DNA from: Buxus sempervirens
Lineage: Eukaryota > Streptophyta > Magnoliopsida > Buxales > Buxaceae
DNA length: 64,000 nt
NCBI GenBank assembly: GCA_947561395.2
Contig: OX387192.1
Location: 11,196,221 to 11,260,220 of the forward strand
Direction: 5' to 3'
The notes beneath the pieces were generated by a model, which was given only the letters and a program-made list of their open reading frames with translations, was not told the origin of the DNA and made no database searches. The translations under genes and the position numbers were made by a program. Of this stretch, positions 3,301 through 24,496 are shown one piece after another. Within the stretch, counting starts at the first letter, position 1; the number at the start of each line of letters is the position of its first letter.

Positions 3301-3711
3301 CCAAACTTGATCCCAATGGATAGGTGGTTCCGAGCCGGTTCCAACGACACTAAGTTTGCTGAAATCGGACACCGGACGAAGAAGTTATGAGCAGTTGAAG
3401 TTTCAGAAAAACTGCCCATGTGGCAAAAAGGCAGCAAAAAATGGAATAAACCAATAAAATAAGTAAAATAAATGTGTTTATTAATATTTTAATAAAGAGA
3501 ATCTCGCTTTTAATAAAATAATCGGAAAAATCAAATGAAAATCTTGCAAAAAACCAAATTGAATAAAGGTTTGAAATCTAGACATTTTAAAAACGTGCTG
3601 GACCGTATTTCAATTACGGGCAAGCTTCTGGAAGAAGATACGCGTCGCTATACAGCGGGACACGCGTCCCGTACGGCCGATTTTGCGAGATTTGGAAATG
3701 TGCGTTTTTCG

Positions 3712-3786
3712 CCCGTATTTGAATTACGGGCAAGGCACGCCCGTACTTGAAGTATGGGCAAGGCACGCCCGTACTTCAAATACGGG
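3712..3786 (+). promoter_or_regulatory. Three tandem 19-bp dyads upstream of the LTR TATA box
   Basis: Copies are at 3712-3730, 3740-3758 and 3768-3786, exactly 28 bp apart. The arms are CCCGTA and TACGGG (copy 2 has TATGGG), and the linker is CAAGGCACG. The last copy ends 16 bp before TATAAATA. Looser relatives occur at 3603-3620, 4623-4640 and about 4679-4696 in the same LTR. They are likely enhancer or repressor sites of the LTR promoter. Confidence 0.65.
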
Positions 3787-3802
3787 CACGCCCCTTTTTG
3801 CC

Positions 3803-3810: not shown

Positions 3811-6800
3811 GAGAGGCCCCCCTCATTTCAATAAGCCTTCCCCTTAGGCCGAACCCCTCTCCCTCCTTGCAGTTCCTACGACCAATCCTTGCCCAAATTC
3901 TGTCTCTCCCAATACCTAAACCCATTTAATACCCAAAATGCCCTTATTATCCCAAAACCACGCCTAAACCTCCAAATGCCTCTTTTTAAACCCAACCTCC
4001 CATCAAGGCTCTTTTAAAACTCAACCTAGAAAATCCCGAAGGACGCGGAAGCGCTGCCGAATTTGCTCCAAATCAGAGGAACCATTAAAACTAGTCATAA
4101 ATTGCATTGTGAGTATTTTTTCCACCATTTAAATACAATGTGATAAGCTTTAATTTCCTTTCAAGTTGTTGTATATTCTACATTTTCCACTAATCCTTTT
4201 TGCTGTTTTCTTTTAAGTCATGGTAAGCTAAATTTAGAAAGGAGTTGATCAATTAATAAAAGAAAGAAAGAAAGAAAGTGTCCAAAGGACACTTTGATCA
4301 ATTAATTTAATGATCCTCCTTGTTCTATGCTAAATTGGGACATGACTTCCTTGAGGTGACTCAATTCCCTGTAAATACCCCATATCCCATTCTTAAATCT
4401 GGAGGTAAACAAACAAGAAATGATCTGGTTTCTTCAAGAAAAATCAAAGAAGAAGAATGTCCTTTTCAAGCCAAAAGGAGGAAATGAAGAATTCTAAAGG
4501 CCCTGGAATCACCACAGAAGTCATTGGAGGTCCCAAGAAGATAGCCGGACAGATCCCAAGCAGAATCAGCAGCAAAAGTGCAGAATAAGCTGCGCCCATA
4601 AACTCAGAGCGGTCCAGTCAGGACCGTGTTTGCTTCACGGGCGAGCCAAACCGGATTTTGTTCGCGGGCAAGGGTGGACCGTATAGAAAATACGGGCAAA
4701 TGTAAAAGTAACATAAAAAATGTAATTTTTCGGCCCGGTTGGATCTATTCCGACCTAAACCAGTTTAAACCAACCCAAGAAGTTGTTTGGGCTATTTTTA
4801 GCCCACTTTTGGACTGTGGGCCTAGAAGGGCCCACCAAGACTCACCTTGGGCCCACTTGAGTGGCCCACATTTTGATTGGCCTATACCAGGCCTGTTTTC
4901 AATAAACAGGTCCAGGCTCCTTGACCCTTGGCTAATGGGCCCATTCCAAGCCCATTAAGGCCAAATAAATTGTAAATAAATAAAGTTTAAATAAATAACC
5001 AAATGGGTTACCCAATAACCCAACTGGGCCCCAGGCCCAATCATGGCAACCCACAGGTCTTCCAACAGGACCTGAGTCCGACCCATTCCACTAAATAAAA
5101 AGATAAAATCAAGATAAAAGGGACCCACACCTTCAGAGGGCCCCGCTAGACCCAACAAACAGCATGCTGGTCTAGGAAGGGTGAGATTGACTCAAAAACC
5201 AGGGAGACCCGAGGGACCCGTCGAACCAACGGGGCGGACCGGGGTGTCTTTAGGACTTCCCCAGACCGTAACCGAGGACGTAGTTAGATCTCTAATAAGC
5301 CGCAGACCAGACTTAGACCCGGTTAGGGCAAAACCGTGTCTGCCTGCACTCTCAGGCAGTGGCGACTCCAAAAATCCCGTGGCACGCACTGAACGTGCGC
5401 CCGGTGTGCGATCTTGGCCAGGTTTAGGTGCGCACAACCACCGTGCAGCTTAGGGGCAGTGCTACTTAATGGTACTCAAGCCCCATGCAGCGCAACTATA
5501 GACAAGAGCCGTAGTCACCGACTTATTGCGCACGAACTCAACAGAGTTGGCATGTACCACCAGCATGCAGCACCAGAATCAATACATGGAGATGGTCGCT
5601 TATCCACATGTACAGGGAATCACCAGTGGCGCACCGGGGTGTCCCTCCAGACATAGGACCTTCCTAGAGCAAACTAACTTGCAAGGGAAGCGCGCTCGCA
5701 TATAGGAGTAACTCAACCCAAACTAAATACCACTTAGCTAACCAGCCAAAACTATGGATCCATATACAGCTAAGCCCACTGACACAAACCACGATAAAAC
5801 CACATACGGGAGGACACGCTACTGTAGGAGGCATACACGTTTTTACCCGTAAAGGATTACACATCTCTACGCAGAGGATTACCCATCTCTGCTGTAAAAG
5901 CCAGTATCAACTCAACCACAGAAGCCGTATCACCCAACCGTAAAAATAAAGTGAACAACATCATACCACATACCAATCCATACCAAAGTATTCCATTCCA
6001 TGGGAAAACCATGATTCAATCCTTAATAATCCAAATAAAGCCTTTTTCAGAATTACATATGCAATTTCTTGATTATATTCAAAATAAAGCTCATGTATCA
6101 TAAACTTGATAGAAAATCAGAGTTTATGCAATTCCAGAAACCAACATTCATATTGAAAGCTCAAATAAAGTAAATCAAATCTTACTTAGAGTTTCCTTTA
6201 ATTAATCCCTTTATTAGAATCCAATTTCCTATCTTCACACCTAAGATAGTTTCTATTTAGGTTTTCTGTATTTTTTAATCTCCAGCATATCCTACAGGCC
6301 TAAAATAAAGTTTAGAAAGTGTTTTTATCCTATAAATTCCAGTAGTATTATTTATATCAATATCCCGTACCATTTGACCCTTTTATGGACAAACCTTTCA
6401 TTATAACCTTCAATTTATTGGTTAATTTTTCCAATTTAATTTTATAATTTTTATACGTTCATTAGGTCCTTATAAAAATGCTAATATGCTTAACTAATCA
6501 GGAAAATTATTGGATATTTATTCGTATTACAAAATCCCCAAAATCTGCAAATTTTACATAGAGCGCCTACCTCTACAGGGCTAGGCAATCCTGGGCGATC
6601 CTAGGCGCTCGTGCAATTTTTAACAGAAATTTCCAGATTTACAAAGTTCGGATTTTTATGCTTTTGCTATATGTTTCTTTGGTCTAAATTAATCTACTAA
6701 CATTATAAAACATACCTAAAGCCCTCTAGACTAATTCTCATCAATTAAATACCATCCTATAATTAATTTCATGATCAAACCAAGTTTTCTTTTTTATTTC

Positions 6801-8581
6801 AACGAATCCTTCAAGAATACCAATCATTACAATAGAAACAATTTGATTCCATGTAAATACTGTTCCGGCTAATCCATTCAATCCATATTAAATCACAGAA
6901 AACGAAATCATGTAGTTCATCCAGTTTTCCAAGGGTTATTACTTGCCTTATACGCTAAAATCCTTCTTCCATTGAGGCTTCTAATTCTGGACCTGAATTT
7001 TGCTCCCAAACGCACCAAGCTAGAGTTCTCTAATTCCAATCTCCACCATTCACATTGTAGTTTCATCAGTCATGAACAAAAACTCCAAATTTGAAGGCGA
7101 TCAACCGTACGGAGTTTCCTCGATCATGATTTGATGATGGCTGATTAGACATCTCCATTAGCAGCCTTCTTCCTTTCTCTCCCTCTTTTCTCTCAATAAT
7201 AAGCCCACGAAAATTCTCTCTTGTCTAACCTTAATCTCCTATTTATATCAGGCTTTAGAAGTCCTAAACCAACCCTAATAGGCTACTTTAATTTGGGCTA
7301 ACCCAACCATGATTTAATTAAAGTCTAACCAATTCTAATTAATTCCTACTTTTTCTCCACCTTTTATTTTTCTACTAAAACATTATTAATTAAATCTCTT
7401 ATCATCTAAACTCCTACTTTCAACCTATTTTCGTGCATAATAATTAATTAAACCTTAATATTACCTAAAACCTTATTTTCCCCAAATTAAGACTTGAAAT
7501 CTCCTAATTACCCTTTTTCTACATTTGGGTTTTTATTAATTCCTTTTAATTTCTAACTTGTTTAAATAAATTATTGTCTTCTATTTTCTATTCCTAGTTA
7601 TTATTTCATGCTTTATTTATTAATTACCCTTTTCTGAAAATTACCAAAATACCCTTTTTACCCTTTTTGGCTAATTTCTTCAAGATTCCTTCTTTATTTA
7701 CAACTTACTACTTATTTGAATTACTTACCCTCTAATCTTCACTTTTTATTTCAACTAGGACTTAAACTAATATTTCTTTTATTTATTATTTATTTATTTA
7801 TTATATGAAAATTCGGGGTTTTACAACCGGATTTCAGACTTAGAGGCTGAGCTCGGGACACGACAGGTATATAGCCTTTTGTAATGTTATTTCTTATATT
7901 TCTGTGTTGTTCTGATATGAATTGCTTGACTTTTGCAGGGTCCGGCCCCAGATCATGACGTTGCATTTGAGCCAAACCTTCCTGTTTCTGGCCCGTCTCC
8001 AGTTCGGGTTGCTGACCCCGAGGACATCCCGGCCGCTGTTCCTGACCTCAATGACATCCCAGTCGCATCTCCTATTCCTGCTTCCACTGCAGATCCTGCC
8101 AGTGCATCTCCTTCTGTGATCATTCCAGATCCCCCAATTCTTGTTGCAAACATCCCTAGTAAGCTTGCTTTAGCTTTATTTCTTTGGTTGATTATGATAT
8201 TTCAATTTCTGACTTTATTTCCATTGAAACGGTTAACCATTCCCTGATCCTCTTCTTACTACTACCAAGACTTCTGAAGCTGTGGGAGTTGAGGCTGCTT
8301 TGACTGAGGATCTAGTTGAGCCTGAGGCGGCTATCCCTCTAGCTAAGCCTGTTCCTGCTGAGCCCGAGGCTTCTTCAACTGACTCTCTTCCCACGGGCCC
8401 ATATCCTGACAATTCGGCTTACTGCCTTACGTACCAAATTCAATCCATTCTGGGCTGGAGACCACGCTGTGCTGCCGAGCGTATTCTGACGCATGTCTTC
8501 AGGAGCTAACAACCTCGAGGCGGAGGCCGCAGAGGGGCACGTGGCAGAGGACGCGGGGATGATCCTGTAGGGGAGCAGTAG

Positions 8582-8764: not shown

Positions 8765-8904
8765 TATCCGACATATCAGGTCGACAAATGAGAACTCCTT
8801 TTGTATCCGACAAGAAATATCGGAGACCAACAACATTTCTTGTATCCGACATTTTTCATCGGATATGAAGGAAACACTTTGTAACCGGTTTGACATATCG
8901 GATA
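8765..8904 (+). promoter_or_regulatory. Array of four 23-bp dyads upstream of antisense ORF 2
   Basis: Units start at 8765, 8804, 8843 and 8882, a constant 39-bp step. Each is 8-nt arm, 7-nt spacer, 8-nt arm. The third is closest to the consensus: TATCCGAC and ATCGGATA. The array ends 13 bp before a TATAAAAA box. The same type of array occurs in the leader (20342-20480) and in the LTR (24280-24420). Confidence 0.7.
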
Positions 8905-8917
8905 CAATTAATTGTAT

Positions 8918-8925
8918 TATAAAAA
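8918..8925 (+). promoter_or_regulatory. TATA box for antisense ORF 2
   Basis: TATAAAAA lies 110 bp before the proposed ATG at 9035 and just after the dyad array, a normal plant core-promoter spacing. Confidence 0.5.
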
Positions 8926-9034
8926 CGACAGGCCTCGGGATGTGCGTCACTTTGACGACTTTTTGAGTTTAGAAAACTCCCTTCTTGTGTTTTTCCTTCC
9001 TCCACTTCTTTCTAGCAAGATCCATTCATCCATA

Positions 9035-10730
9035 ATGGCCTCCGAATCATCTTCTGCCCCTTTGTTGTCTGGCACTGAAGCCTCCCCTGCAAAACAACCA
9101 TTTAGAGCAAAAGCCTCTAATCTCACCAGGTACAACCCTGTAGATTCATTTTACAATAGTTGGGTTAACTCTATGACTCTTGAAAAAGAGATTAAATGGG
9201 ATTCCATCCATCTAAGCCACATCATGCCCATCCCTATCATTCCCTTCAAATGGGAAATCATTGAGGCTTTGATCGAGTATTTGGAACCTCAACTAAATCT
9301 CTTTCGGTTTGGAGACAAAGAGATGACCCCAACCATTGAGGAGGTTGAAACAATTCTGAGCTTGAGGTTTGCAGAGAAAGTGGTGAATCCACCCCTTAAG
9401 CCTAGCTACAAGAAAGAGGCTTCCACTTTTCTGGGTATAGGGAAGATGGATCTAGAGGACTTTGACACATTTTTGACTTTGTCTAAGCCTTTTCTGACTG
9501 AGAAGCTCTTGAGGGGGAACAATAAAGAAGCCCGGTTTATTGCCTTGACCCTAATAGTGGTCAATCAGTTACTTTTCCCACGGGATGATGATGAGGTTGA
9601 CTTGGCTCTTATCTCAGTCATCTGCCAGGTTAGGGAGCGGGAGATGTTGGCCCCTATGATTTTGGTAGGGATGTATCAAGCATTGATTGACTGCTACCAC
9701 AGGAAAAAGAAGCACTTTTTGGCATGTGCCCCTATCCTACAGGTAAAATCCCCCCCCCCCCCTTTTTTTTTCCTTTTTTCTTCTTTTTTTTTCTTTTTTT
9801 TTCTACAATTCATTGAAATATTTCCCCCTTTTTGCAGCTTTGGTTACTGGACCACCTGAGTCAAATTGAGATGATTGATAGACGCTTCTCTCCAAGGATG
9901 AAAATTCTTGTCTTGATGAGAAACCGAGGGTGTCCTGACATCCCGGAAGGCAAGCAGGGTTGGTATACTTTCTTGGGTTCTCTCCAGGATGATTAGGTGA
10001 GGTGGCCTGGCTCTTATCAGCCCAATGCAAAGACCGTAATCAGCTTTAGGGATAGGAACTTCATGGTCTTAGTAGGCTTGAGGTCTGCTGTCCTCTACCT
10101 TCCTTTGCGGGTTCTTCGGCAATTTGGAGCAACCCAGGGGATTGCGATCCCAAATGGATATGAGGACTTCCTGGGGCCACTTACACAAGCCACCATGGGG
10201 CTGAATGCCCGGTTGATGAAGGAATGGTCCTATGCTCGTTTTATGCGGGGCCCCGTCTTTTCTGAAGCCCGTGTGAAGGACTATCTTTTTTGGATCAGCG
10301 AGCAAGTCCAGAATTGTGCCCCGGTACCAGAGGATCCTCATGCTGTTCTTGCACCTACTTACGAGGATATATTGGTTTCTGAGAGAGCATCCCATAAGTG
10401 ACTTTAACAAATCTGGGTGCGAGAGGCCCAGGAACTTAGGATGCGAGGTGTTGATCTGGAGAGGCAACTTGAAGAGCAGGTATCCTGCCGCATTGATATG
10501 GAAAAGCAACTCGAGGAGCAGAGGCAGGCTCGCCGCTTTGAATTCCGAGTGCTGCAGCAGAAGCACCAGGATGCTTTAGCCAACCTTAGAGGCATGAGGA
10601 TCAGGCAGGCACTCTCAGATGAGGTCATCTAATTTTTTAGCGATTCGGATGCAGATAGAGCTTCTGGAATTATTGTGGCTTAGGCGGCTCGGATTTAAGA
10701 GCTTGAGGAACGGCTAGGGGATAGGGACCA
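9035..10730 (+). pseudogene. Antisense ORF 2: DUF7745 / plant-mobile-domain-like gene of the Tat element
   Basis: Exon 1 runs from ATG 9035 to 9742 (donor GTAAAA). Exon 2 starts at 9838 after a T-rich tract and TTTGCAG. Exon 1 holds the family signature: a WEIIEALIEYLEPQ segment followed by FRFGDKEMTPTIEEVETIL, the 'FG...MTPTLEEV' pattern of DUF7745/PMD proteins found with plant LTR elements. Exon 2 continues with the W-P...FRDRNFMVLVGL and LRVLRQFG segments, then a coiled coil rich in E, Q and R (10417-10632). Damage: TAG at 9994-9996 (probably CAG originally), TGA at 10399-10401, TAA after DEVI at about 10630, and more later. It is antisense to pol. Its product role is unknown. Confidence 0.7.
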
Positions 10731-11685
10731 GCTCCTTTTATTGCATTTTTTTCATACCTTTGTTCAAAAGTAAACTCCAATAGTGGAAAGATAAAGGATT
10801 TAATTTAAAAATAAATTTTATACTATTGGCCTCAGAATTCTCAGATACTTGTAAAAACAAAGGTTTTATGAAAAGTATTTGATTTATCATCACTGGCCAG
10901 AATATAATTTTTTTGCTTTTTTGTATTTTATTATTTTTTTGAATTTTAGTCCAAAACACTTAATCACACAAAATTAAAAGAATTGAAATCAAGTTGAATA
11001 ATGAAAGGGGTGATTCAAGCAATAAGGATAGATCAAATCTGTCTATCCTAGGACCTTTAGAGTCATCTCCAAATGCCTTCTCTTCCAGAATTGACCCCAT
11101 TATTCCCAATCCATTCCATCTTCAGTGCTTATATTGATTTCCCTTTAAGCTTGGACAACATGATCAACACAAACCTTAATTTTTTTTCTTTTTCCTTTTT
11201 TCTTGCCACTATTGCCCCTAGCTCCAGTTACGGTTTTCACTAGGGCCGGCTCTGGTATTCCGTCATCACCAATCTTTACTCTGATTATTGAAAGAATACA
11301 CCAAGATCACCGAGGGCTTATAAATAGGACGAAATGAAGACTAGGCTCGGTTTATGAAAGAAATGTTGTTAAAGGCTCAAAATTTACCAATCATGAAAAT
11401 AGGTCAACTGGACTTACAATCATGATGCATATAACCCGGATTCCCCAAACTTTGCTCATTTCTTTTCTTTTTTTGCACTTGGCTTTCATTTGCCATTTCT
11501 TTTTTTTTCTTTTTCTGTCCCTTTTTCTTTTGTTTTTGCCCCAATTGGCTTTGCCCCAGTATGCAACTGTAAGTCCTAGTTTAGGTTTGTCAAAGAAATG
11601 AACAGGCTCGACTTGGCTAGACTAGTGATGAAAAATTTTGGGAAATAAAAAAAATGGCCCCGGATCATTTCCTAGTAATATTCAA
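10731..11685. other. Non-coding spacer between antisense ORF 2 and pol
   Basis: AT-rich, with several pyrimidine tracts (around 11180-11210, 11460-11530). No domain could be read on either strand. It separates the 3' ends of two converging transcription units. Confidence 0.5.
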
Positions 11686-13050
11686 TCAAGAAAAATACCT
11701 TTTTACCGCGTCAGAGTTGATTGGCTCAGGAAAATCTTTTCCATCCATTTCTATTAAGATGAGTGCACCCCCTGATAGGACCTTCTTAACAACATAAGGC
11801 CCTTCCCAATTTGGCTTGAACTTACCACGAGGGTCTTCCAAAAATGGTAAAATTTTCTTTAAGACCAAGTTTGCCTCTTGGAAAGTTCTGGGCTTCACCT
11901 TCTTATTATAAGCCTTGGCCATCCTTTTCTGATACAATTGGCCATGACAAAGTGCCTTCAAACGCTTTTCCTCTATCAGATTGAGTTGATCATGTCTTGA
12001 CTATATCCATTCAGTCTCTTCCAATTCTGCTTCCATTAGCACTCTTAGTGTTGGGATTTCCACTTCAACGGGTAAAACTGCCTCCATTCCATAAACGAGG
12101 GAGTACGGAGTTGCCCCAGTAGAAGTTCGGATTGAGGTCCTGTAGGCATGTAGAGCAAGCGGTAGCATTTCATGCCAATCTTTGAAACTCACTACCATGT
12201 TCTAAATTATTTTCTTTATATTCTTATTTGCTACTTCTACTGCCCCATTCATCTTTGGTCTGTACAGAGCAGACTTGTGATGGGTAATCTGGGATTGCTC
12301 ACACATCTTCTTCATATCTTTGTTCTTAATATTAGAAGTGTTGTCTGATACTATGGCATTTGGCAGACCATAACGACAAATAGTGTTGTGCTTAAAAAAC
12401 TTAAGAACATGGCTACTTGTGATATTCCCATATGAAGCCGCTTCTGCCCACTTGGTGAAATAGTCGATTGCTACTAGGATAAATTTGTGTTCATTCGATG
12501 CCTTAGGAGAAATCATGCCAATGACATCTATGCTCCACACAGAGAAGGGCCATGGTGATGTCATGTTATGCAACTCACTTGGGGGTGCATGCTTGTTATC
12601 CGCATATATTTGGCATTGATGACACCTCCTAACATGTATACATCAACTGTGCTCCATAGTCGACCAATAGTATCCCAATCGTAGAATCATCTTTGCAAGC
12701 ATGTGCCCGTTCATGTGGGGTCCACAGATTCCTCCATGTACAATCTCAATTAACCTTTCTGACTCAGCCCTGGCAACACATCTGAGTAGAATATCATTGT
12801 GTGATCTCTTGTATAGCTGTCCACCACTTAGTAGGAATTGACTGGCTAATCTCTGTATTGTCCTTTTCTCTGTAGAAGTGACATTTTCTGGCAGACTCCG
12901 ATCATTCAAGAAATTTTTGATGTCTTGAAACCACGGTACTTCCTCTTCTGGTGCTCCCTCTAGAACAAGACAATATGCAGGCTCATCTCTTACCTCAATT
13001 TCTAGTGGCTTGATATCTACCCGTTTTGGCATGCTGACCATTGAAGCCAA
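11686..13050 (-). pseudogene. Tat retrotransposon integrase
   Basis: One frame (minus) with three nonsense codons: TGA at 12640-12642, TAA at 12199-12201 and TAG at 11998-12000. The N-terminal HHCC zinc-binding part is at 12570-12740 (HGG.CGPH then RCHQCQ). The catalytic core is at 12202-12573, with D in WSIDVIG, D in IVSDN, and E 35 residues later in GAVE, giving the D-35-E triad. The C-terminal part (11686-11961) has the KWEGPY-like FKPNWEGPYVV motif. No chromodomain was seen, as expected for Tat. It inserted the cDNA into the host genome. Confidence 0.85.
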
Positions 13051-13055
13051 TGTTG

Positions 13056-13583
13056 CTAGAGCATCTGCAAACTAATTTTGGCCCTTAGCATATAGTTGAA
13101 GGAAATTCGAGTAAATTTAGTGCTTATTTCTTCCAAATACTGGTGATAGGGGATTAGTTTATGATCCTTGGTTTTCCATTCACCAGTTATTTGGAAGATG
13201 ATAAGACTCGAATCTCCGTATACGTCAAGTTCCTCCACTTCAAGGTCTAAGACGGCTTGCAACCCAATTATGCATGCTTCATACTCTGCAATATTGTTTG
13301 TACATTGAAATCTCAACTTCACTGCGATTGGGATGTGTGACCCGTCCGGCTTGACCAAAACTGCTCCAATTCCATTTCCATTCATGCTGGCAGACCCATC
13401 GAAAAACATTTGCCAAGAGCTTTCATTTTCCTCTTCTTCAGTAAACAGAATTGCCTCATCAGGAAAGTTAATCTTCAAAGGTTGGTATTCTGATAGAGGA
13501 TGTGCAACTAGGTGATCAGCAATGGCTTGACCTTTAATTGCTTTTTGAGTGATGTACGTGAGGTCAAATTCGGAAAGCAACAA
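13056..13583 (-). pseudogene. Second RNase H domain (RVT_3-like) of Tat pol
   Basis: The segment has the FDGSASMNGNGIGAVL start (first catalytic Asp), then NIAEYEACIIGL (catalytic Glu) and the DVYGDSSLI motif (third Asp). This plant/archaeal-type RNase H lies after the usual RT-linked RNase H and is diagnostic of the Tat lineage. It is in a different frame from the integrase, so a frameshift lies near 13053. Confidence 0.8.
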
Positions 13584-13703
13584 CTGCCACTTCGCCGTTC
13601 AGCCAGTTAGAGCCAGTTTCTCAAATAAGTATTTCAGCGGTTCCATTCGAGATATCAATAATGTGGAGTGACTGAGGAAGTAATGCCTCAGTCTCTGAGT
13701 TTC

Positions 13704-14093
13704 TCACACTAAAGCACAACAGGTCTTTTCCAATGGGGAATACTTGGCTTCATATTCTGTAAACTTCTTACTCAGATAATAAACTGCCATTTCCTTTCTA
13801 CCAGTCTCATCATGTTGCCCCAAGACACATCCCATCGACGTCTCCAAAACCGACAAGTAGAGAATCAGTGGTCTTCCTGGAGTTGGTGGCACTAGCACAG
13901 GTGGATTCAGCAAATATTCCTTTATTGTATCAAAGGATTGTTGGCAATCATCATTCCAGACCGGCGAGTTATTTTTCCTCAAAAGCTTGAAAATTGGTTC
14001 ATAGATAGCGGTGAGCTGTGTTATGAACCGGCTTATGTATTGGATCCTTCCAAGAAAACCACGAACTTCCTTTTCCGTTCTGGGTGATGGCAT
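13704..14093 (-). pseudogene. First RNase H / connection domain of Tat pol
   Basis: It carries the typical Ty3 segment: EVRGFLGRIQYISRFI, then a thumb/connection, then RPLILYLSVLETSMGCVLGQ and YSPLEKTCCALV. It follows RT in the usual order and is frameshifted relative to the RT C-terminal part. Confidence 0.8.
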
Positions 14094-14143
14094 TTCAATA
14101 ATTGCCTTTGCTTTAGCCGGGTCAATTTCAATTCCCTTTCTGC

Positions 14144-14886
14144 TTACAATGAACCCCAGTAATTTCCTTGATGTAGCCCCAAAGACGCATTTAGCCGGGT
14201 TAAGCCGTAAACTGTACTTTCAGAGTCCTTCTTCAAATTGACCAAGTGATCCTCTTCTTTGCATGATTTGGCGATCATATCATCCACATAGACCTCCATC
14301 TCCTTATGGATCATATCATGGAATAGTGCTGTCATGGCCCGCTGGTAGGTTGCCCCGGCGTTCTTAAGTCCAAATGGCATGACCGTGTAGTGAAAAGTGC
14401 CCCAAGGTGTGATGAATGCTGTTTTTTCCTGATCTTCCTTAGCCATCTGAATCTGATTTACCCCGAGAAACCATCCATGAATGAGAATGGGCTATGTACA
14501 ACAGTATTATCGACCAAAATGTCGATGTGTAGAAGTGAAAAATCATCCTTTGGGCTCGCCTTGTTCAGATCTCTATAGTCCACGCACATCCTGACTTTTC
14601 CATCCTTCTTTGGTACTGGCACTATGTTTAAGAGCCACTCAGGGTACGTGGAGACTGCCAAAAACCCAGCTTGAAATTGCTTCACCACTTCATCTTTGAC
14701 CTTCAGGGTCCATTCCGGTTTCAATCTCCTCGGCTTTTGCTTAATTGGCTTAACCCATGGCAGAATTGGTAGCCTGTGTACCACCATGTCAGTATCTAAT
14801 CCCGGCATATCCCGATATGACCATGCAAATACATCTTTATAATCGGCCAAGAATCGTGACATTGCATCACATTGCTCATCAGACAA
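14144..14886 (-). pseudogene. Reverse transcriptase of Tat pol
   Basis: Two frames (14458-14886 and 14144-14446) give one domain. Motifs in order: the KVRMCVDYRDLNKASPKD palm motif, DGFSG, then TFHYTVMPFGLKNAGATYQR, and the catalytic YVDDMI box at about 14279-14290. The frameshift is near 14450. It converts the element RNA to cDNA and is no longer intact. Confidence 0.85.
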
Positions 14887-15715
14887 TCATGCCCCAACTT
14901 TCACAATTTTTGGGTCATCTTCGGTCCCTAGATTTATTGAAATGGTCTCCTCAATATTAGGTTGCACACCCCTTTCATGACGTTCCAACTGATATTCAAT
15001 TTCCTTTGGAGGGTCTTCTTCTTCGACCTCAGTCTCTTCTTCGACCCCCATTAGGTTAAAGTTGAGCTCAAGGTTGAAGTCATATTCAACCTGACCTAAC
15101 TTTGTTTGCTTGTATGGTTCATAAATGGTTTGGACATTTTTTAAAAAATTAAATTTTCTAGAAAAAATAGAAAAATCTTTTTGGGTTTTTTGTGAGCCTT
15201 CTAAAAAAACTTTCCCTAAAGATGAAGGCTCATTAGGACCTTCAGGGAAATGGCATTCCACTAATGGAGTTTTTTTTGGAAGCCGCGTTTGTTTGCCATT
15301 CAAACGTTGCTTCAAAGGTAAGGAGAGTTTCCTCTCAATTGCTCAAAACAAACTTTCCAGAAGCAGGGGAAATGGTGCAAGCCTGCTCCTCAAGCTCTAA
15401 ATCCGATGCCATCATCACCGGATGAGTTGTACTGCCTTTTTCTGCCACGGGGCCCAATCCAGATATAACCTCATCTAGAATCTTTATCGCTGCCCAATCA
15501 ATGAACGGCAGCTCCTTATCTTCTTCTGTTCTTTCGTCTTCAGTCATGGCGAAGAAAGCCTCGATATCTTCAGAGAAGTTCATCTGTTGTTCTAGCTGTG
15601 GCCCAGGCCTGCCCACTGTCTTAAGTGTAGAAGATGGGTTATAGAGTTGCAGGGTTGGAATATATGGCTTTTGGAAGGGATTGATGTTGCGGTATGGAGG
15701 TCTGGACTGATCCAT
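14887..15715 (-). pseudogene. Pol linker between protease and RT
   Basis: Two blocks (15335-15715 and 14887-15315) without a named domain. They are acidic (EEETEVEEEDPPKE, DERTEEDKELPFID) and end in IEETISINLGTEDDPKIVKVGA, the stretch that normally precedes RT in Tat elements. A frameshift lies near 15325. Confidence 0.65.
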
Positions 15716-15811
15716 GGGAGGAGACAGTTGGATCGTGCAAGAGGGTTTGGGAAAATTTTCCTTTAAATGAGGGAATTTTCCTCTATTTTTATTCTCTCCT
15801 TCTTCCTGCTT

Positions 15812-16456
15812 CTACCTTCTCCATCCTCTAGGTTTAAATCCCAACCCTACTTTAGGGACCAGCTTCTTTGTCCTGATTGGCTCCAACATCCCCTGCAAAT
15901 TAATTCCCAGACCTTTCCCTGAGTGAAAGTGATATTTTTCCATCACTTTCTTTACCATTTTCTCAACAGTAGTTCCTTTCTCTTCTTTTTTCTCACACCC
16001 CCCAGGTATGAAATTGACAGTTTCGAACTGAAACGAATGGAATGCAATTTTGTCGACAGTTAAATCCACATTGATGAAGGTTACATCCGGTGATACAATG
16101 AGAGGTATCAAATTCTCAACTAGGACAGTTATCACCCTCTGTCCTCTTATATACTTCACCCTTTGGTGAAGAGTGGATGGTATTGCTCTAGCCAAGTATA
16201 TCCATGGCCTCCATAAGAGCAGATTGAAGGCTGCTGGGATATCCATCACTTCAAATGTGATGTTAAAGATATTCGGTCCAATGGTGACTGGCAGTTCAAT
16301 CTCCCCTAGGGAATGTGTCTTAGAGCTATCGAAAGCCCTCACAATCCTCCCATTCTGCTTGATCTTGGATTGATCCAAACCAAGTTTGGCAAAAGTGATT
16401 AATGGGCAAACATTTAAAGCCGACCCATTGTCAATTAAAACCCTGCCACCATACTG
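15812..16456 (-). pseudogene. Aspartic protease of the Tat element
   Basis: The active-site motif VLIDNGSALNV is readable at about 16405-16440 (Asp codon at 16430-16432). The fold continues with IVRAFDSS, IGPNIFNITFEVMDI and LLLWRPWIY (usually LLGRPWIH). The conserved Gly of LGRPW is changed to Trp (LLWRPW), so the copy is probably inactive. A G-patch-like stretch (SGKGLGINLQGM) follows near 15890. Confidence 0.75.
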
Positions 16457-16594
16457 CCCTTACAAAGCACAATGATGTGCAAAGGGTCAACATGGTAGCA
16501 CCCACCGGGGCTTATTTCACTTTATGAAAAACTTATTACATTGTGTGATAAGATTTGACCAACCATTTTGCCTAGTTGGTCTAGATCAATGGCT

Positions 16595-17866
16595 TTAGGC
16601 ACGTGTGCACTCTGAAGCACCCTTAATAATGCGTCCCTGTGCTTTTCTGAATTCAGCAAGTCCCAGTATTGACATCTGGGCCGGGGCCTTATTCAACTGT
16701 TCGACAATATTGAATTCACTTTTCTTTATGACCTTGATGAGGTTGGCTGCCTCGTTTTCTTTTTCCTGGGGGTGTCCTCCCCCATTTTTGTTTTTCTTTT
16801 CATTTTTTTCTTTTCTTCTGTTTCTTCTCTCCCTCTCCACCTCTGGTTCTTTTTCTTTTTCTTCTCCTTCTAAACATCTCCCTGACCTCGTCATGAGGTT
16901 CACCTCCTCCTGGTTCTTGACCACTGGAACCGTAGCCATGACCTCCTCACTGTAATTCCACGGTACAACCAACTCAAAATAGGGCAATTTAGGGACATGG
17001 ACCATAAGCAGTTGGAGTTTGGACCGGGATGTAGAAGTTGGTTTAGGAGCATTATAGATAGGTGGAACATTTACCACCAAAGGTAGAAGCTGTTTGGGAG
17101 TTGTTGGAACAGAAGAAGTAATGGATGCAGTGGTGGGGTCACAGTGGATGACCAAGGGAGTTTTTGATGGCTATGATGGAGAAAAAGTGGGTGAATTGCA
17201 ATTAAAGACCAAATGAGGCATTGCAATGTTTATCTGGGCCATGAGAGAGGAGACCTGATTCAGTGAGGAGCTAATATCCTCAGCAACACAATCATTCTTC
17301 CTGGAGATGACATTGACTTCTCCCTCCTCCTTCTCTTGGAAGAAATGAACCTTAACCGAAGTCCCTACGGGAGCGATCAATTGAGAGGGATCAAAGGTTC
17401 TTCTCATGGAGGAGATGGCTGTGATTGAGTTAGATAGGCCTGCCCCATTGTGATAAGGCAGGGAGTTTTGTCCAATATCATTTCCTGACAGGGTAGGCGC
17501 AGCAGTATTGAAGAATAGGGTTTTCTGGTCCAACAGATCCTGAACCGCATGCTTCAGAACCCAACAATTGTCTGTAGAGTGCCCAAGTGCACCCATGTGA
17601 ATTTCACACGTGACTGCTGGATCAAAATTCCTCCCCTTCGATGCATTTGGGTTAGGCTCTTTCAAGGTTACATATTCCCCTTTCAACAGGGTTGGTAACA
17701 GTTGGGAAAGAGACACAGGAAGATGAGTGAAAACTCTATTCCTTCTGGCTGTCATCCAGGCATCTCTCTTCCTTAGTGAAGGCCCTCCTTGGGTTTGCAG
17801 GCACGGAGGGGGTGAAATTGACATTGAGCGGGGTTTGATATGACTGCTGGGCCTGCTGGGTTGCAT
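16595..17866 (-). pseudogene. Gag C-terminal part with zinc knuckle and gag-pol linker
   Basis: The upstream block (17171-17866) has the zinc-binding CEIHMGALGHSTDNC motif followed by LKHAVQDLLDQ, a known Tat gag signature. The downstream block (16595-17155) has VPWNYSEEV, NLMTRSGRC, a highly charged K/E stretch and EFNIVEQLNKAPAQMSIL, all standard between gag and protease in Tat elements. Confidence 0.75.
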
Positions 17867-17903
17867 AAATATTGACGTGGAGTGGTTTTTTGGGAGGAGG
17901 GGC

Positions 17904-18940
17904 CTATACCAGGTTTACTTCTCCTTCTTTCCTTGCTCCATTCTTCTTAAACCCATTCCCTTTCTTCTGTGCCAGGGAAGTGGAGGAATCCGATTGTCCG
18001 GCCAGAGTAGAGTAATCAATGAGTTTTCCTGACCTGACCCCTTCCTCAATCTGGTCAGCCACTTGTACCAAGGCTGCAAAATTGGTGGTAATCTGACCCA
18101 CCAGGTGATTGTAGAAGGGTTGCCCCAATGTATTTACGAACGTTGAGATCATCTCAGGCTCCAACATAGGCGGCCTGATTTGGGAGGCAGCCTCTCTCAA
18201 CCTTTTGGCATATTGCCTTACGGATTCCTCTTTTCCCTTGCTCATCCTCATCATGTCGTACCGGTCTGGCCAGATCTCCAAGTTAAACTTGTATTGGTCC
18301 AGAAAAGCATCGGCCAAGTCCTTCCACCTTCTTATCCTTCCATGGTCCACGGTGGCAAACCACCTCAGAGCCGCTCCCGTCAAACTCCTTTGAAAGAGCT
18401 GAATTAGTATACCGTCATCCTGGCCAAACTAGCACAAAGCCCCGCAGTATAACTTTAGGTGGCTCATTGGGCAGCCCGTGCCATCATATTTATCAAAGTC
18501 CGGGCATTTGAATTTTGCCAGTAGGCAAACATCCGGGTATATGCACAAGTCATCAAAGGTGGTACCTCCATAACTGCTCCCCCCTTCACTTCCTTGAGTT
18601 CTTCTTGAATTCTCTCTATCTTATGTAGAAGTTTCCTTTCCATCTCCTCCCTTGCCTTTTCCTTTTCCATCTCTTTCTTAAATTCCACAGTATTTTCCCT
18701 GATCAGGATAGGTTCAGGGATAGGTTCAGAAATGGGTTCAGGTGTGGGTTGAGCTGGAGGTGGAATGTTGGTTTGAGGTGGCGGTGCTTGGTGGGAAGTG
18801 GATGCTTGGTTTTGGGCTTGGGCTTGTTGGGCCTGAGCCGCCAGTAGGTCTTCTAACATTTTGGCCAGTCCGGCCACTTGCTCTTGTAGTTAAGCAAAAT
18901 CCTGAACAAGGACGGTGGCTTTATTCTCTTCCGGATTCAT
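17904..18940 (-). pseudogene. Gag (retrotransposon gag domain) of the Tat element
   Basis: The start is ATG at 18940-18938 (MNPEENK). A TAA follows 16 codons later. A Q/P-rich segment, a charged coiled coil (18600-18720) and a frameshifted KFKCPDFDKYDGTGCP motif near 18500 come next. The core gag domain is at 17904-18383 (LTGAALRWFATVD, then W.DLADAFLDQYKFN). It would form the virus-like particle. It is broken by a frameshift near 18420 and the early stop. Confidence 0.75.
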
Positions 18941-19136
18941 TGTGCGGGCTTTTGATCTGGTTACGGGAGCAATGGTTGCAAGTACTTTATATCTGGAGAA
19001 GGAAAAACAAAGAAACATGTCGGCTCCAATTTAATCCTAGTCACACACCTATACATGTAGATAAGTGAGTTAGGTGAACACAAGTCTAGATTTATTTGTT
19101 TTTTATATATATTTTTCTATTTTTTTTTTAGGATTG

Positions 19137-20043
19137 TTGGAATATTTTAGGGCTTCCAAAGGTCCTACAAGATTTTGGATTGATTGATATGGAGAGACCA
19201 ACCAAAGTTTTTTTTTGGGAATATTTTAGGGCTTCCAAGTGTCCCATAAAAGTTTGATTTGATTGGTACGAAAAAGACCAACCAAGGGTTTTTTGGAATA
19301 TTTTAGGGCTTCCAAATGTCCCACAAAATTTTAATTGATTGGTACGAAAAAGACCAACCAATGGTTTTTTTGGAATATTCTAGGGCTTCCAAAGGTCCCA
19401 CAAAGATTTGAGTTGATTGGTACGAAAAAGACCAACCAAAGGTTTTTGTTTTTTTTGGAATATTCTAGGGCTTCCAAGTGTCCCACAAAAGTTTGATTTG
19501 ATTGGTAAGAAAAAGACCAACCAAGGGTTTTTTGGAATATTTTAGGGCTTCCAAGCGTCCCACAAAATTTCAATTGATTGATACGAAAAAGACCAACCAA
19601 AGGCTTTTTGGAATATTTTAGGGCTTCCAAAGGTCCCACAAAGATTTGAGTTGATTGGTACGAAAAAGACCAACCAAAGGGTTTTTTTTTTTGGAATATT
19701 TTAGGGCTTCCAAGTGTCCCACAAAAGTTTGATTTGATTGGTACCAAAAAGACCAACCAAGGGTTTTTTGGAATATTTTATGGCTTCTAAGCGTCCCACA
19801 AAATTTCAATTGATTGGTACGAAAAAGACCAATCAAAGGCTTTTTGGAATATTCTAGGGCTTCCAAAGGTCCCACAAGATTTTGATTTGATTGGTACGAA
19901 AAAGACCAATCAAGGGTTTTTTGGAGTATTTTAGGGCTTCCAAGGTCCCACAAAAGTTTGATTTGATTGGTACGAAAAAGACCAACAAAGGGTTTTTTTT
20001 TTGGAATATTCTAGGGCTTCCAAAGTCCCACAAAAATTTTAAT
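19137..20043. repeat. Minisatellite of twelve 76-85-bp units in the leader
   Basis: The motif GGGCTTCCA recurs at about 19150, 19229, 19306, 19383, 19468, 19545, 19621, 19704, 19781 (diverged), 19857, 19933 and 20013. Each unit carries GGAATATTTTAGGGCTTCCA, then GTCCCACAAAA, TTGATTGGTACGAAAAAGAC and a T-run of variable length that explains the size range. Such arrays in Tat/Ogre untranslated regions are known seeds of satellite DNA. Confidence 0.9.
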
Positions 20044-20341
20044 TGACTTGCAAAATTCCTTCTGTTTTCAAGTCCAAATGTTTGATTGAAACATGTTTGA
20101 GGTGGCTTGGCATCAAGAAATATGACACCTTGGCTCCCCCTTTTATGTATCTTCCTTAAGTTTGAGGGAAAACTGGATTTGTGTTCCAAGATTAGGTTAA
20201 AATTTTTTGTTAAACCTTTTGAACACTTAATCTATCTTTTCATACTCCCCTTCAGGTGCCCACAGATTAATCACAATGTTTTTGGCATTTTACATTCATG
20301 AGAGATTGGGATAAGAAACCAATTTGTACATTTCCAGGCTG

Positions 20342-20480
20342 TATCCAACATATCAGGTTGGCTAAATCTGTGGTTTACTGTATCCGATATAAATAATTGG
20401 ATACAAATATAAAACCTTTTACCGATGAGAACTGTCAGATAAGAAGAAAATATGGCTTAACCGACCTGAGTTGTCGGTTA
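20342..20480. promoter_or_regulatory. Dyad array in the leader (four 23-bp units)
   Basis: Units start at 20342, 20381, 20419 and 20458. The last is a perfect 8-nt dyad, TAACCGAC ... GTCGGTTA, and the first is TATCCAAC ... GTTGGCTA. Arm changes are matched on the other side, so the symmetry is maintained. Compare 8765-8904 and 24280-24420. Confidence 0.7.
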
Positions 20481-21404
20481 ATGCTAAAATAATCCTTTTT
20501 GACTCATTTTTTCACTAGATTAATGTTATCTTTATTCCCACTTAATGTTCACCTTGACTTGGCCTCTAAACACAGTCCCAAATTGGACTTTGACACTACA
20601 CTTGCAAAAATGCATGAATGTTCATGAGGGTACATGCCCCTCAAACCGTGGACACCATACTCCTGAACTTTGTTCTTTTGGTTGCATCCTACATAGACTT
20701 TGGGTGGGACAACTTCTAAGTAGAGTTAAAGACTCTCCCTATAGGTTACACCAAACTTAGGTTACAAACACTTTTGGGAAAAATTTCATCCCAAGCATAT
20801 GGACATCATGGCCTTTAATTTACATGACATGAAGATAATTAAAAACATGATTTTACCTTGCCACCTCGTGTTACCTTCAATATGGTATTCATATTATACC
20901 TTGGCCTGTGAAACATGCAAATGGCCTTCCCTCAATTACACCCAATTCCCAACGTAATTGTTTACTTTAGCTGAAAAAGTGTTTCTCCACCTTCAAGCGT
21001 ATGGTTTTTGGGTTTTGGCTTATTGGCAACTTAGATCTCAAATTTAGTGATGCCCGGAATCGAGTCACAGATCCCATTGTCATCACATCATTGACTCAAA
21101 CTCTAAGGTGAATGTTTTCACTTTCGCTTTCCGAAGTATCAACCTCGTTGTACCAAGCTACACACATTCGGGTTCAACTTCCTATAGGTAATGGGTAGGC
21201 TGTGCAAAAAGTTTAAAGTGCTCAAGTGCATTTGAAATTCAAGGAAACATTCACAACGTCCCAACCCCTTGCCACTCTTTTCGCAGTCATGCATACAATT
21301 TCAAGCCAAGGCATAATACAACATTATATTGATAGTAAAAACACCCAAACATGCTCATGACTATCATATTCACAAAAGTAATACCCAAGCATGTTATCAC
21401 ATTG

Positions 21405-21850
21405 TACAAACAACGCCATGAAAAGCATGCTTGAAACCCAAAAGCATCCCATAAATTTCTAGATTGTATGCTCTTCATTTTGATGTTCAAATTGCATTAT
21501 TCATACCCAACTCAAAGCCTAAAAATCCAGCAACTAATAACATGGTACAAGAAGTGTTTTATTAAGGAAAACATGCTTAAAAACCCCCAAAAATACCCAC
21601 TGAATTTCCAGATTTCTTGCTCTTAATTTTTTATGTTCCACATGCATCATTTATACCCAAATCACAGCCTAAAAATACAGCAACTAATCTCATGGTATAA
21701 AAAGAGTTTTAATTTAGGGAAAACATGCTTGAAGGCCCCAAAAATACCCACTAAATTCCTAGATTTCATGCTCTTAATTTTTATGTTCAACTCATGGCAT
21801 AAAAAACCAAAATTAGAGCATGTTATCACAAAATACATCAAAATCATGTT
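21405..21850. repeat. Three tandem ~150-bp repeats in the leader
   Basis: The phrase AAA-CATGCTT...CCCAAAA followed by AGATT..TGCTCTT and later CCTAAAAAT.CAGCAACTAAT recurs at about 21421, 21568 and 21720 (steps 147 and 152). The third copy is partial. Confidence 0.7.
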
Positions 21851-22046
21851 ACAAGATATGCTCTCCTTAAACAAATTTTTAGACATAATCAAGCAACATA
21901 TACATGCCATATCTTCCTGAATCTTCTAATCATACAAAACAAATCTAAGATACATCAAGCAAGCCCAAATAAAATAACCAAAACAGCAAGCATTCAAGAA
22001 TAAAAATAAAACACGAATAAACACAAAACATGGCTTAAATCCACAA

Positions 22047-22065
22047 GTCCCCAGCAGAGTCGCCA
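22047..22065 (-). other. Primer-binding site of the Tat element
   Basis: On the minus strand it reads TGGCGACTCTGCTGGGGAC, the tRNA-complementary primer site of Tat-lineage elements, four bases after the 5' LTR end (CTCA). Confidence 0.85.
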
Positions 22066-23689
22066 GTTTTGAGACATGGAAAAAATCAATCTCGTGACTT
22101 TCTGGTCATCACACGGGATTCGAAAAAGCGAAGAGTCACCACCATTCTTTTTAGGTGTGAATGGACACCAAAATCATCAAAATAAGCAAAAAGGTAAAAC
22201 TAGATTAAAAAGAATTTCTCTTTAGAATAAAAAATCCAGAGATGAGCAAGGGGATTAGATTATGAATAGGGGAATGTGTTAGGCACCCCCAATTTACCCA
22301 CGCAAGGTGGTTGCCAAGTATTGTTCATGTTCAAAATAAAGAAAGCTTGCTAATTAAAATAATCAAAAATGCTTGAAAAGGATTAAACACATGTTTGATC
22401 CCTCCACATGAGAAGTCCAATGAATCTTAGACTTTCTTTTATGGAAGTATCACTTCTAAAACATTACCATTAATGGCAAATCAAAAACTTGAATACAAGC
22501 AAGTTGAGGCAAATTCGGAAAAACTCGTTAAAAGATAGAGCCATTTGACCATAAATCATTCAAATCAAATTCAAATTGAATCAAACCAAATTCATTTGAA
22601 AGATTATGATAAATAAAAGACTCAGGAAAATTTTCAAGTAGATGTGATTAAAATCCTAAGAGTTATGCTTGTTTGAAATTCATTGTTATAAGTTGATAAA
22701 AGTGGCAAGTTGGCAACTTTGAAAACCTATTTGTGAAGATTGGCTCCATATAAATCTTTGAAAATTTACAAGAATGAAGTACATGGTGCCATCTTTCAAA
22801 TGAAATAGGCCTCACACAAAACTTCATTCGGATATGATTTGTGTGACCTTACGAACATGGCTAGAGGATCACAGATCAGCGCAGAATTGTGCTATAGGGC
22901 AGTTCTGAGTAAATCAGACACACAAGACACAAATGAAAGCAAAATTTTTTGAAACCAATTGGATTTGAAAGCATACTCATAAAGGAAAACACAGAAATCA
23001 AAATCACTTAAATCGGACTTAAATCGAGCAAGTGGTGCTCAGTCAAAGTGACAGGTTCAGCAATCTGGCCTGAACTAACCTATCGACTTTGATCGAATGG
23101 TGTCAAAAAACCCCTCCATAAAAATTGATGAATTTTTACAGACACAAACTAGACAAGCTCACCTTTCACATGTCTTTGAAATCACCCCAAAATTCATCCG
23201 GAAGATGAAGTTATGGGTGTTCCAAGATCGGGTGCAACTGCTGTCCAGATTTAAGCAAAATCAAGTCAAAACAGTGGGCAAGTGTGAGTGATCTGTGTAA
23301 TTTGAATTAAAATCATTTGAAAAAATGTTGAAAAACCTCCAAAAGGATATAGGGCACGAATTTGGCTCACCATTCTCTTTGATTGGATAGAATATACCAA
23401 AACCCCCAAAATGGAGCAAAAATGTCTAAAACAGAGAGATTAGACCGAGATGTCTTCTATATCCAAGGAAAAACTTGCTTGCATTCTTTTGAAAACCATT
23501 CAGAAATGTTCAAGAAATGCTTGGGGCCATTCATAGATCTAGCATAATGTATACGATAGATCCAAAATACAAGCCTATTTCGACAAAACAAGTGCGATGT
23601 GTGTATGTGCAAAAATCATCTCTTTAAATTAATCAACATATCACGACATATAGCATTAAAAAAATACATCAATCAAATGGGGTTCTATG

Positions 23690-23935
23690 ACTAAGGTTCC
23701 ATTCCCATTCTCGTTTCCCCTAGTTTTCTTTTCATCTTTTACGGCTAGAAATAATCTTGAGGTACTTTGAGTAGGGAATGGGGTTTCACACAACAGTAGG
23801 TCATTAAGAGGATTCTGGAACTAAGGTTCCATTCCCATTCTCATTTTCCCTAGCTTTCTCATTACGTTTTACGGCTAGAGATAGTCTTGAGGTACTTTGA
23901 TTAGGGAATGGGGTTCCACACACAAGCAGGCCATT
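23690..23935. repeat. 130-bp tandem duplication in the LTR
   Basis: Two copies start ACTAAGGTTCCATTCCCATT at 23690 and 23820. Both contain TTTTACGGCTAGA and CTTGAGGTACTTTGA and end in a GGGAATGGGGTT stretch. Confidence 0.85.
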
Positions 23936-24104
23936 ATTCTACAAAAAGGAAGAAGAAGAGACTAATTCTAGAATTTAAGAACAGAAAATTAAAAGAAGAT
24001 TAGGGCTTACCTGGGTTCTGGAAGCAATGGGGCAGACGTTCCCTTCTTCACTTGGAGCTCCTCAATCTCCAACTTCTTGGCCATTTGCTTGAGGATAAGC
24101 CTCC

Positions 24105-24112
24105 TATTTATA
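24105..24112 (-). promoter_or_regulatory. TATA box of the Tat LTR
   Basis: TATAAATA on the minus strand, about 390 bp from the LTR start and 170 bp downstream of the dyad array, a plausible U3/R core promoter. Confidence 0.55.
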
Positions 24113-24279
24113 AGCAAAGGCTAGGGCAAGGGGTGCCCTAATGGTAGACACAAAATTATGTCTACAATCCCCTAACTTAAACCCTAAGGCCATTTTCGAG
24201 AATTCCTACTCATAGAGATATGTAAAACAGTAAAAAAGGGAAAAACCTCGGAATTTTCAAAGTTTACAGCAAAACACTA

Positions 24280-24420
24280 GTATTCGGCAACTCAGGCCGG
24301 ATACTAACACAATTCTTTGTATCCGACATTATCTGTCGGATATATACAAAACACTTTGTATTCGACAATTAATATCGGATAAACAATGAAAAGCTTTTAT
24401 CCGAATTTTTACTTCAGATA
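24280..24420. promoter_or_regulatory. Dyad array in LTR U3 (four 23-bp units)
   Basis: Units are at 24280-24302, 24320-24342, 24359-24381 and 24398-24420. The second is a perfect dyad: TATCCGAC, 7 nt, GTCGGATA. The first is TATTCGGC ... GCCGGATA, with a matched change in both arms. They lie 75-215 bp from the LTR start, where LTR enhancers usually lie. Confidence 0.75.
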
Positions 24421-24496
24421 CAGAAGAAACATTGCTCTTTTAATGATTTTGGCCAATTATTCATCTTTTTATGTAGTGCAATTTGGGGTGTCTACA

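Follow-up and report, generated by a model that had tools for sequence, protein, structure and literature searches.

We analysed a 64,000-nucleotide stretch of the Buxus sempervirens genome (the window; GenBank assembly GCA_947561395.2, contig OX387192.1, positions 11,196,221 to 11,260,220 of the forward strand), which holds, on its minus strand, a retrotransposon that its sequence places among the Tat-type Ty3 elements. This element carries three regularly spaced arrays of four short inverted repeats (dyads), one in the U3 part of the long terminal repeat (LTR), one in the leader and one in the promoter of an antisense gene for a plant mobile domain (PMD) protein of the DUF7745 type. The best overall explanation, to which we give a probability of roughly 0.5, may be that the arrays are dimer sites for a regulator encoded by the element itself, probably a PMD protein, at the element's own promoters. 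It is very probable, judging from the features of the arrays, that they are sites for a protein on double-stranded DNA; the odds that an element-encoded PMD protein is the reader appear about even, PMD/DUF7745 being the candidate with the most circumstantial support.

A preliminary description of the window had listed twelve dyad units of 23 bp at spacings of 38-40 bp, two of them perfect, as a motif that one Tat-type element has in its LTR, its leader and its antisense promoter. All twelve units were found, and the shared motif was borne out (Table 1). Two units indeed pair at 8/8 arm positions, the arms of the remaining ten matching at 4 to 7 of 8. One start had been misplaced: at 24280 only 1/8 arm positions pair, and the real start is 24281 (TATTCGGC-N7-GCCGGATA, 7/8 pairing). 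The spacing claim thus stood as to its regularity and could be narrowed, the steps after this shift being 39/39/39, 39/38/39 and 39/39/39; the sole 38 step, in the leader, is a one-base deletion in the window copy, as 28 one-base insertions occur there among 29 other leader copies. The antisense-promoter array has steps of 39/39/39 in 9/9 copies, the window copy included. The list of units was incomplete. The LTR array is present again in the 3' LTR (window -1652 to -1513, negative coordinates lying before the window start), and two further units with a step of 39 lie at window -983 and -944 (positions 7017 and 7056, span 7017-7078, of L069; L followed by a number denotes a fetched genomic slice), with a TATA-like sequence within about 10 bp after them (TTATATC in L069, TTATATAA in L003). 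This two-unit array may tentatively be linked to a second PMD gene, PMD2, whose frame begins about 1.5 kb further on. For the first antisense gene, PMD1, the ATG lies about 110 bp beyond the TATAAAA box that follows the array, and the order array, TATA box and ATG was seen in the window and in 4/5 other printed slices (L107, L112, L116 and L117), L115 being not clear. A scan of the window and 8 kb upstream for chains of at least three units with a step of 37-41 recovered the three arrays of the window, the copy in the 3' LTR and, in a TCGGAT-rich stretch at 31.8-32.4 kb, two weak chains. The stretches rich in TCGGATA at 31.8-32.3 kb do not form regular dyad arrays.

The preliminary description had also proposed a whole-genome search for such arrays. 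In the 676-Mb, 247-contig assembly of the source genome, the pattern TCGGATA-N4..21-TATCCGA occurred 6071 times, against 20 for a reversed-pattern control, and arrays with a 39-bp step were recovered at other loci. Among the 50 matches listed, all within the first 12.1 Mb of one contig, the gap was exactly 16 (step 39) in 40 and 6 in another six. Of 33 slices fetched from these 50, 26 contained arrays and seven (gap 6, 14 or 21) contained none, including all five that were fetched of the six gap-6 places; TCGGATA-N6-TATCCGA palindromes of a separate repeat explain these five matches (L089, L090, L099-L101). Together with L117, which was found upstream of another DUF7745 gene, this gave 27 diverse arrays, with four units in 19, five in three, three in two and two in three. 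Their steps are 39 in 74/76 cases, a count in which 26 of the 27 arrays had been found by an exact arm pattern, most with gap 16, and in which the path finder allowed 36-42 and mildly favoured 39. Beyond the array itself, 24 of the 26 loci match the window element (20 in the LTR, one in the leader, two in the antisense promoter and one on the polypurine tract side), several at only 65-75%, while L075 and L088 match across the array only; the arrays thus appear to be a feature of a diverged lineage and not of a single family. In the 19 four-unit arrays, the first-unit spacer ends in YAG in 14 and the fourth-unit spacer begins with CTR in 14, compared with 0/38 middle units, a CAG end-unit pattern that was defined after looking at the data. 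Within the element's own copies it is found in 5/9 antisense-promoter, 19/30 leader and 24/27 LTR first units, and in 6/9, 25/30 and 0/27 fourth units, respectively. Most arrays are, on this pattern, roughly two-fold symmetric as wholes, the LTR array of the window family excepted.

The same geometry with different letters was observed beside other DUF7745 genes. A search for DUF7745 listed 118 matches, many in open frames, and 16 upstream slices, spread over types of open reading frame, were picked blind to the motif. Dyad arrays were present in eight: one of the type seen in the window element (class A, L117), six of class B (L107, L111-L114, L116), in which five units of the form GCCCGTAA-N5-TTACGGGC stand at steps of 28/28/27/28 (28 throughout in L116), and one of class C (L115; AACCG...CGGTT). 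The core CCG-N11-CGG is found in every class seen. It occurs 29 times in the 16 slices, compared with a mean of 1.0 and a maximum of 6 for other spacings from 0 to 25, and is absent from 30-64 kb of the window. When seven deeper slices, chosen behind slices with no array so far, were added, the N11 count rose to 49, against a mean of 3.3 and a maximum of 7 for other spacings; L120, L123 (only two in register) and L125 showed units like those of class B or C, L126 showed more class C-like units, and no array was found in L121, L122 and L124. Genome-wide, the class B pattern occurred 7949 times versus 118 for its reverse, and 48/50 among the matches listed have a gap of 7. The class A step of 39 (17 + 22) and the class B step of 28 (17 + 11) differ by 11 bp, about one helical turn. 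Three motif classes stand beside different DUF7745 genes, and, among the few proteins compared, the PMD1 proteins of classes A and B are 72-78% identical over their aligned parts.

These classes bear on the strongest of the alternatives, itself unlikely, namely that a host transcription factor, such as an auxin response factor, binds the arrays and the element thereby hijacks host signalling. TGTCGG is an auxin response factor half-site. Its reverse complement, CCGACA, is the commonest half-site in the 27 diverse class A arrays (91/206), and similar boxes of Sirevirus elements mainly recovered stress-related sites of the PLACE database, as far as the excerpt of that work goes. Against this, CCGACA/TGTCGG is absent in 8/8 class B and C slices counted and a 5.4-kb class B insert of the window holds a single CCGACA. 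The spacing of CCGACA-N5-TGTCGG also differs from that of auxin response factor dimers. Moreover, the flanking letters vary between DUF7745 families whereas the geometry is constant, which fits an evolving element-encoded reader better. As a general reading, auxin-response half-sites were rejected, since they fit class A but not classes B and C.

For an element-encoded reader, the PMD genes themselves are informative. Exon 1 of PMD1 matches PF24924 (E=2.3e-16) and PF10536 (E=2.3e-06, below its cut-off); the exon 2 fragment alone gave no Pfam match, and the intron presumed to follow ...APILQ is suggested by the frame and by its resumption at LWLLDHL. The ratio of nonsynonymous to synonymous substitution rates (dN/dS) for exon 1 was 0.07-0.21 in the 11/15 pairs with computable dS (it was not computable in four, several others were near saturation and L127 has a stop within the stretch), and exon 1 is, on these ratios, under purifying selection. 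In an AlphaFold model of PMD1 the only extended confident part is a long C-terminal helix (residues 486-567; predicted local distance difference test, pLDDT, 72-82 for residues 501-560), which is compatible with a coiled coil and could dimerise. PMD2 has a basic GRGRGRKRGR stretch that resembles an AT-hook.

The preliminary description had noted units in which both arms change together and had proposed a comparison with a shuffled control. An excess of paired arm changes was present, though weak: after 20/30 arrays had been dropped as related by their linkers, 36 units from 10 arrays judged unrelated by linker gave 5 paired changes versus 1.75 expected by shuffling (p=0.014), against 31 one-sided differences among 288 positions. 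The slight excess may come from the symmetry of a dimer or from template switching. The latter alternative, according to which template switching in reverse transcription perfects quasi-palindromes and so produces symmetric arm changes, any function of the sites being a separate matter, would suit a weak excess of paired changes in a reverse-transcribed element; we regard it as improbable, because arm differences are mostly one-sided and because it would explain neither spacing nor position.

The spacing is in fact where constraint is most apparent. From larger match lists with 40 candidates scored per search, 68 loci were fetched by DNA similarity (8 for the antisense promoter, 30 for the leader and 30 for the LTR). 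Counted with no preference for any step, 186/200 raw steps in these copies are exactly 39 bp, and three consecutive 39-bp steps occur in 54/68 loci (8/8 for the antisense promoter, 24/30 and 22/30 for the other two sets). Indels were fewer in the array than in its flanks for the LTR (8/4043 versus 36/7404 aligned positions, 29 copies), the leader (31/4029 versus 126/9905, 29 copies, 28 of the 31 being the deletion of the window's own copy) and the antisense promoter (0/1120 versus 42/1902, 8 copies). As distinct events, they number 5/26, 10/50 and 0/24 in array and flank, respectively, with flanks 1.8 to 2.5 times longer than the arrays and most of the 10 leader events being placements of one deletion. 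Substitutions, on the other hand, were more frequent in the array than in the flank (LTR 0.126/0.081, leader 0.150/0.122, antisense promoter 0.144/0.096). With fewer indels and more substitutions than the flanks, the spacing looks constrained, and the firmest sign of constraint in these alignments is the length of the arrays, held despite drifting linkers. Arms also varied less than linkers: with no motif selection, non-CpG variation from the column majority was 6.2%/13.3% (arm/linker) for the LTR, 3.2%/14.5% for the leader and 7.6%/10.9% for the antisense promoter. A motif-selected test, which flatters the arms, gave non-CpG figures of 5.2% for arms, 9.7% for spacers and 12.9% for linkers; it kept 27/32 LTR, 9/9 antisense-promoter and 30/30 leader rows, the LTR rows left out being the duplicate loci L069 and L070 and three with no clean four-unit path. 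In 84 array pairs whose linkers are at most 45% identical, arms are 84% and spacers 51% identical, the arm figure being partly circular given the search by exact arm pattern.

Several observations weigh against dimer sites read by an element-encoded protein, and some of these would suit another origin, in which the arrays are functionless relics of a tandem duplication of a 39-bp unit, kept by recent copying. The arrays partly resemble old tandem duplicates: CTTTG before and CA after the units are common traces in the linkers, the LTR and antisense-promoter arrays align weakly (70-78%), and tandem duplication by itself would make the step regular from the outset. Arm variation is no lower than flank variation in the LTR (6.2% vs 5.8%) and the antisense promoter (7.6% vs 7.5%), and only the leader arms fall below their flanks (3.2% vs 9.3%). 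The p values of the indel comparison (0.017, 5e-15 and 8e-9) are overstated, since the copies share descent. Still, relics seem very unlikely to account for arrays with fewer indels and more substitutions than their flanks, for LTR and leader arms about half as variable as the linkers or less, for four fixed array positions retained in diverged relatives and for the recurrence, beside other DUF7745 genes, of the CCG-N11-CGG geometry in different letters. Further points concern the proposed reader. In L106, L108 and L119 an array is reached only 2.0-2.7 kb before the domain match; no array was found within about 2.7 kb upstream of DUF7745 in L104, L105 and L118; L109 and L110, judged to be of the same type as L106, have none in the slice directly upstream; and six of the eight slices with arrays are close class B relatives, so that these hits are not independent. 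The AlphaFold model of PMD1, built with six sequences, is poor (pLDDT 43) and no DNA-binding domain was identified in it, and a sequence search of the PDB returned no solved relative. Finally, the host PMD proteins MAIN and MAIL1 have been linked with a motif in promoters and with either the silencing of transposons or the activation of genes (PMC7156037, PMC9899485; here, as for the other papers cited, we draw on excerpts), and the DOWN motif of the MORC1 promoter, CATGCAGTTT, for which those excerpts leave direct binding open, shows by eye no resemblance to the CCG-N11-CGG dyads and was rejected as an equivalent of the arrays.

The preliminary description had left the choice between a symmetric protein site and an RNA hairpin. 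A DNA site fits the arms being less variable than the linkers, the held step and the lack of strand asymmetry: arm changes from the unit majority, C>T against G>A, number 32:31 in the LTR, 35:39 in the leader and 18:13 in the antisense promoter, so that G-U pairs do not seem to be tolerated on one strand, which speaks for DNA. RNA hairpins in the element's transcripts, serving as packaging, dimerisation or processing signals, are the least probable alternative and may be set aside, because, although genomic RNA would be expected to include every array and some arm changes are paired (TAACCGAC/GTCGGTTA, CATCCGAC/GTCGGATG, TTTCCGAC/GTCGGAAA), the two kinds of change are nearly equal, the pairing excess is weak, and hairpins would not be expected to show a fixed 39-bp step with free linkers or to lie next to TATA boxes. 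The suggestion that units four turns apart share one helix face did not hold: with 10.5 bp to a helical turn, the 39-bp step corresponds to 3.7 turns and the 28-bp step of the sister class to 2.7 turns, so neighbouring dimers would be rotated by a fixed angle.

Taken as sites for an element-encoded dimer, the arrays would be DNA platforms, either upstream activating or anti-silencing sites. A homodimer would read two inverted, CCG-centred half-sites (CCG-N11-CGG), and adjacent dimers would line up with constant spacing, 39 bp in the window element and 28 bp in its sister families; the difference of about one turn may reflect contact between neighbouring dimers. Platforms would lie at the LTR promoter for gag-pol, at the two antisense promoters ahead of the PMD genes and in the leader. 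The reader would most likely be a PMD protein that the element itself encodes (PMD1/DUF7745, dimerising perhaps through its long C-terminal helix), and it would enhance expression of its own gene as well as of the LTR across copies. In a broader and more tentative form, which we find somewhat less likely than the alternative of its being wrong, the PMD/DUF7745 proteins of retrotransposons would be a family of dimeric, sequence-specific DNA-binding regulators, with evolvable flanks around a fixed CCG-N11-CGG, so that each Tat family would have a regulon of its own, comprising its LTR, its leader and its antisense PMD promoters, through helically fixed arrays (28 or 39 bp, one turn apart), and the host proteins MAIN and MAIL1 would be domesticated members. 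The extra genes of many Tat elements (PMD, TRP28) have no known role; should PMD families prove to be paired with dyad arrays of their own at their own promoters, this role becomes testable as that of a transcription or anti-silencing factor encoded by a retrotransposon. Such a pairing would further hint at the type of DNA target of domesticated host PMD proteins, and would offer a natural series of protein and site variants.

The anatomy of the element agrees with its assignment. By Pfam profile matches, RVT_1 (14491-14144) precedes rve (12642-12202) on the minus strand, an order of reverse transcriptase before integrase by which the element is classed as Ty3 and not as a Ty1/copia Sirevirus; gag and pol together occupy about 18.9 to 11.7 kb of the window. 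Two frames on the opposite strand, PMD1/DUF7745 from 9035 and PMD2 at 569-1474, lie between pol and the 3' LTR. The two LTRs are 95.5% identical across 1517 columns, and about 870 bp of the 5' LTR (22118-22984) have no counterpart in the 3' copy. Just upstream of gag, the leader contains about 12 copies of a 77-bp tandem repeat (19130-20046), and just upstream of the element, window -7998 to -6082 (L069 2-1918) shares about 78% identity with the 5' LTR and is inverted relative to it. The class B insert (approximately 2436-7820, 5.4 kb) separates PMD1 from PMD2 here and is absent from copy L070; it ends TGTAACGCCCCGAA...TTCGGGGTTTTACA, its longest stop-to-stop frame is 118 amino acids, no internal LTR pair was seen in a self-comparison, and it is perhaps a solo LTR or a non-autonomous element. 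Elsewhere, window 30768-44979 contains segments in inverted pairs (84-87% identity) that themselves include tandem repeats.

Table 1. Features of the array-bearing element and its insert (positions in the window; negative values lie before its start)
Feature	Position	Strand	Remarks
5' LTR	22070..24496	-	start TGTAGACACC at 24496; inner end inferred
LTR U3 array, four dyads (24281, 24320, 24359, 24398), step 39	24281..24420	-	
LTR TATA box TATAAAT	24106..24112	-	about 170 bp downstream of the LTR U3 array
Leader array, four dyads (20342, 20381, 20419, 20458)	20342..20480	-	one 38 step
gag region	17904..18889	-	Retrotrans_gag in 17904-18428
pol region, several broken frames	11686..16459	-	G-patch, RVT_1 and rve matched; RNase H by eye
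Antisense PMD1/DUF7745, part of exon 2 (RWPG...SERASHK), open-frame fragment	9997..10401	+	77-78% identical to L128
Antisense PMD1/DUF7745 exon 1	9035..9742	+	end approximate; putative splice donor after ...APILQ
TATA-like box TATAAAA of antisense PMD1	8918..8924	+	13 bp past the last array unit
Antisense-promoter array, four 23-bp dyads (8765, 8804, 8843, 8882), step 39	8765..8904	+	
Second class B array, weaker (4594, 4622, 4649, 4677)	4594..4697	+	same insert, about 0.8 kb past the TATAAATA TATA box
Class B units GCCCGTA-N7-TACGGGC (3601, 3711, 3739, 3767)	3601..3787	+	in insert; then TATAAATA at 3803
Antisense PMD2 frame	569..1474	+	basic GRGRGRKRGR stretch, then PMD; PF10536 E=1.8e-11
3' LTR	-1437 to -2949 and beyond	-	match to 5' LTR

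Among the papers listed in literature searches (titles and abstract openings, with few subscription journals), none describes such arrays in Tat elements, and a text search for five motif strings returned, among the matches listed (titles and abstract openings), other subjects only. Within the Tat group, the antisense position of the extra genes after pol is Retand-like and their PMD content Ogre-like. Retand elements, Tat-clade Ty3 elements as well, carry between pol and the 3' LTR antisense TRP28 genes of suspected DNA-binding function (PMC11963269), whereas the antisense genes of the window element carry PMD/DUF7745; the terms 'PMD', 'plant mobile', 'DUF7745' and 'inverted repeat' were not found in a term search of PMC11963269. 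In Ogre elements, 57% have an extra open reading frame containing a PMD (PMC6317226), and the antisense frames with PF24924 and PF10536 matches found here resemble them in this respect.

The closest known systems appear to be the CGG-CCG boxes of Sirevirus elements and the VANC motifs. The RM boxes of Sirevirus elements (Ty1/copia) are palindromic and numerous, and every box except one has a CGG-CCG core; they are located before the TATA box in the LTR and a second time before the ENV-like extra gene, and their sequence is element-specific (PMC2829016). The window element resembles them in its many copies (twelve units) of CCG...CGG dyads upstream of the LTR TATA box and of an extra gene. It differs in being Ty3, in having CCG-N11-CGG at a step of 39 or about 28 and in its extra gene being an antisense PMD gene, whereas RM boxes have short centres and no fixed step is given in the excerpt of PMC2829016. 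In Arabidopsis VANDAL elements, anti-silencing depends on a transposon-encoded VANC protein that binds a short motif present repeatedly in non-coding regions of the family to which it belongs, and motif and protein diverge together; the VANC21 motif YAGTATTAY is short, has one orientation, and its repeats are gained and lost (PMC5735166). The units described here differ in being inverted repeats, mostly four to an array with the outer units facing inward, and are known from sequence. By analogy, VANC may nevertheless supply a mechanism for an element-encoded reader, in which a PMD protein would act on the copies of its own family as VANC does on VANDAL.

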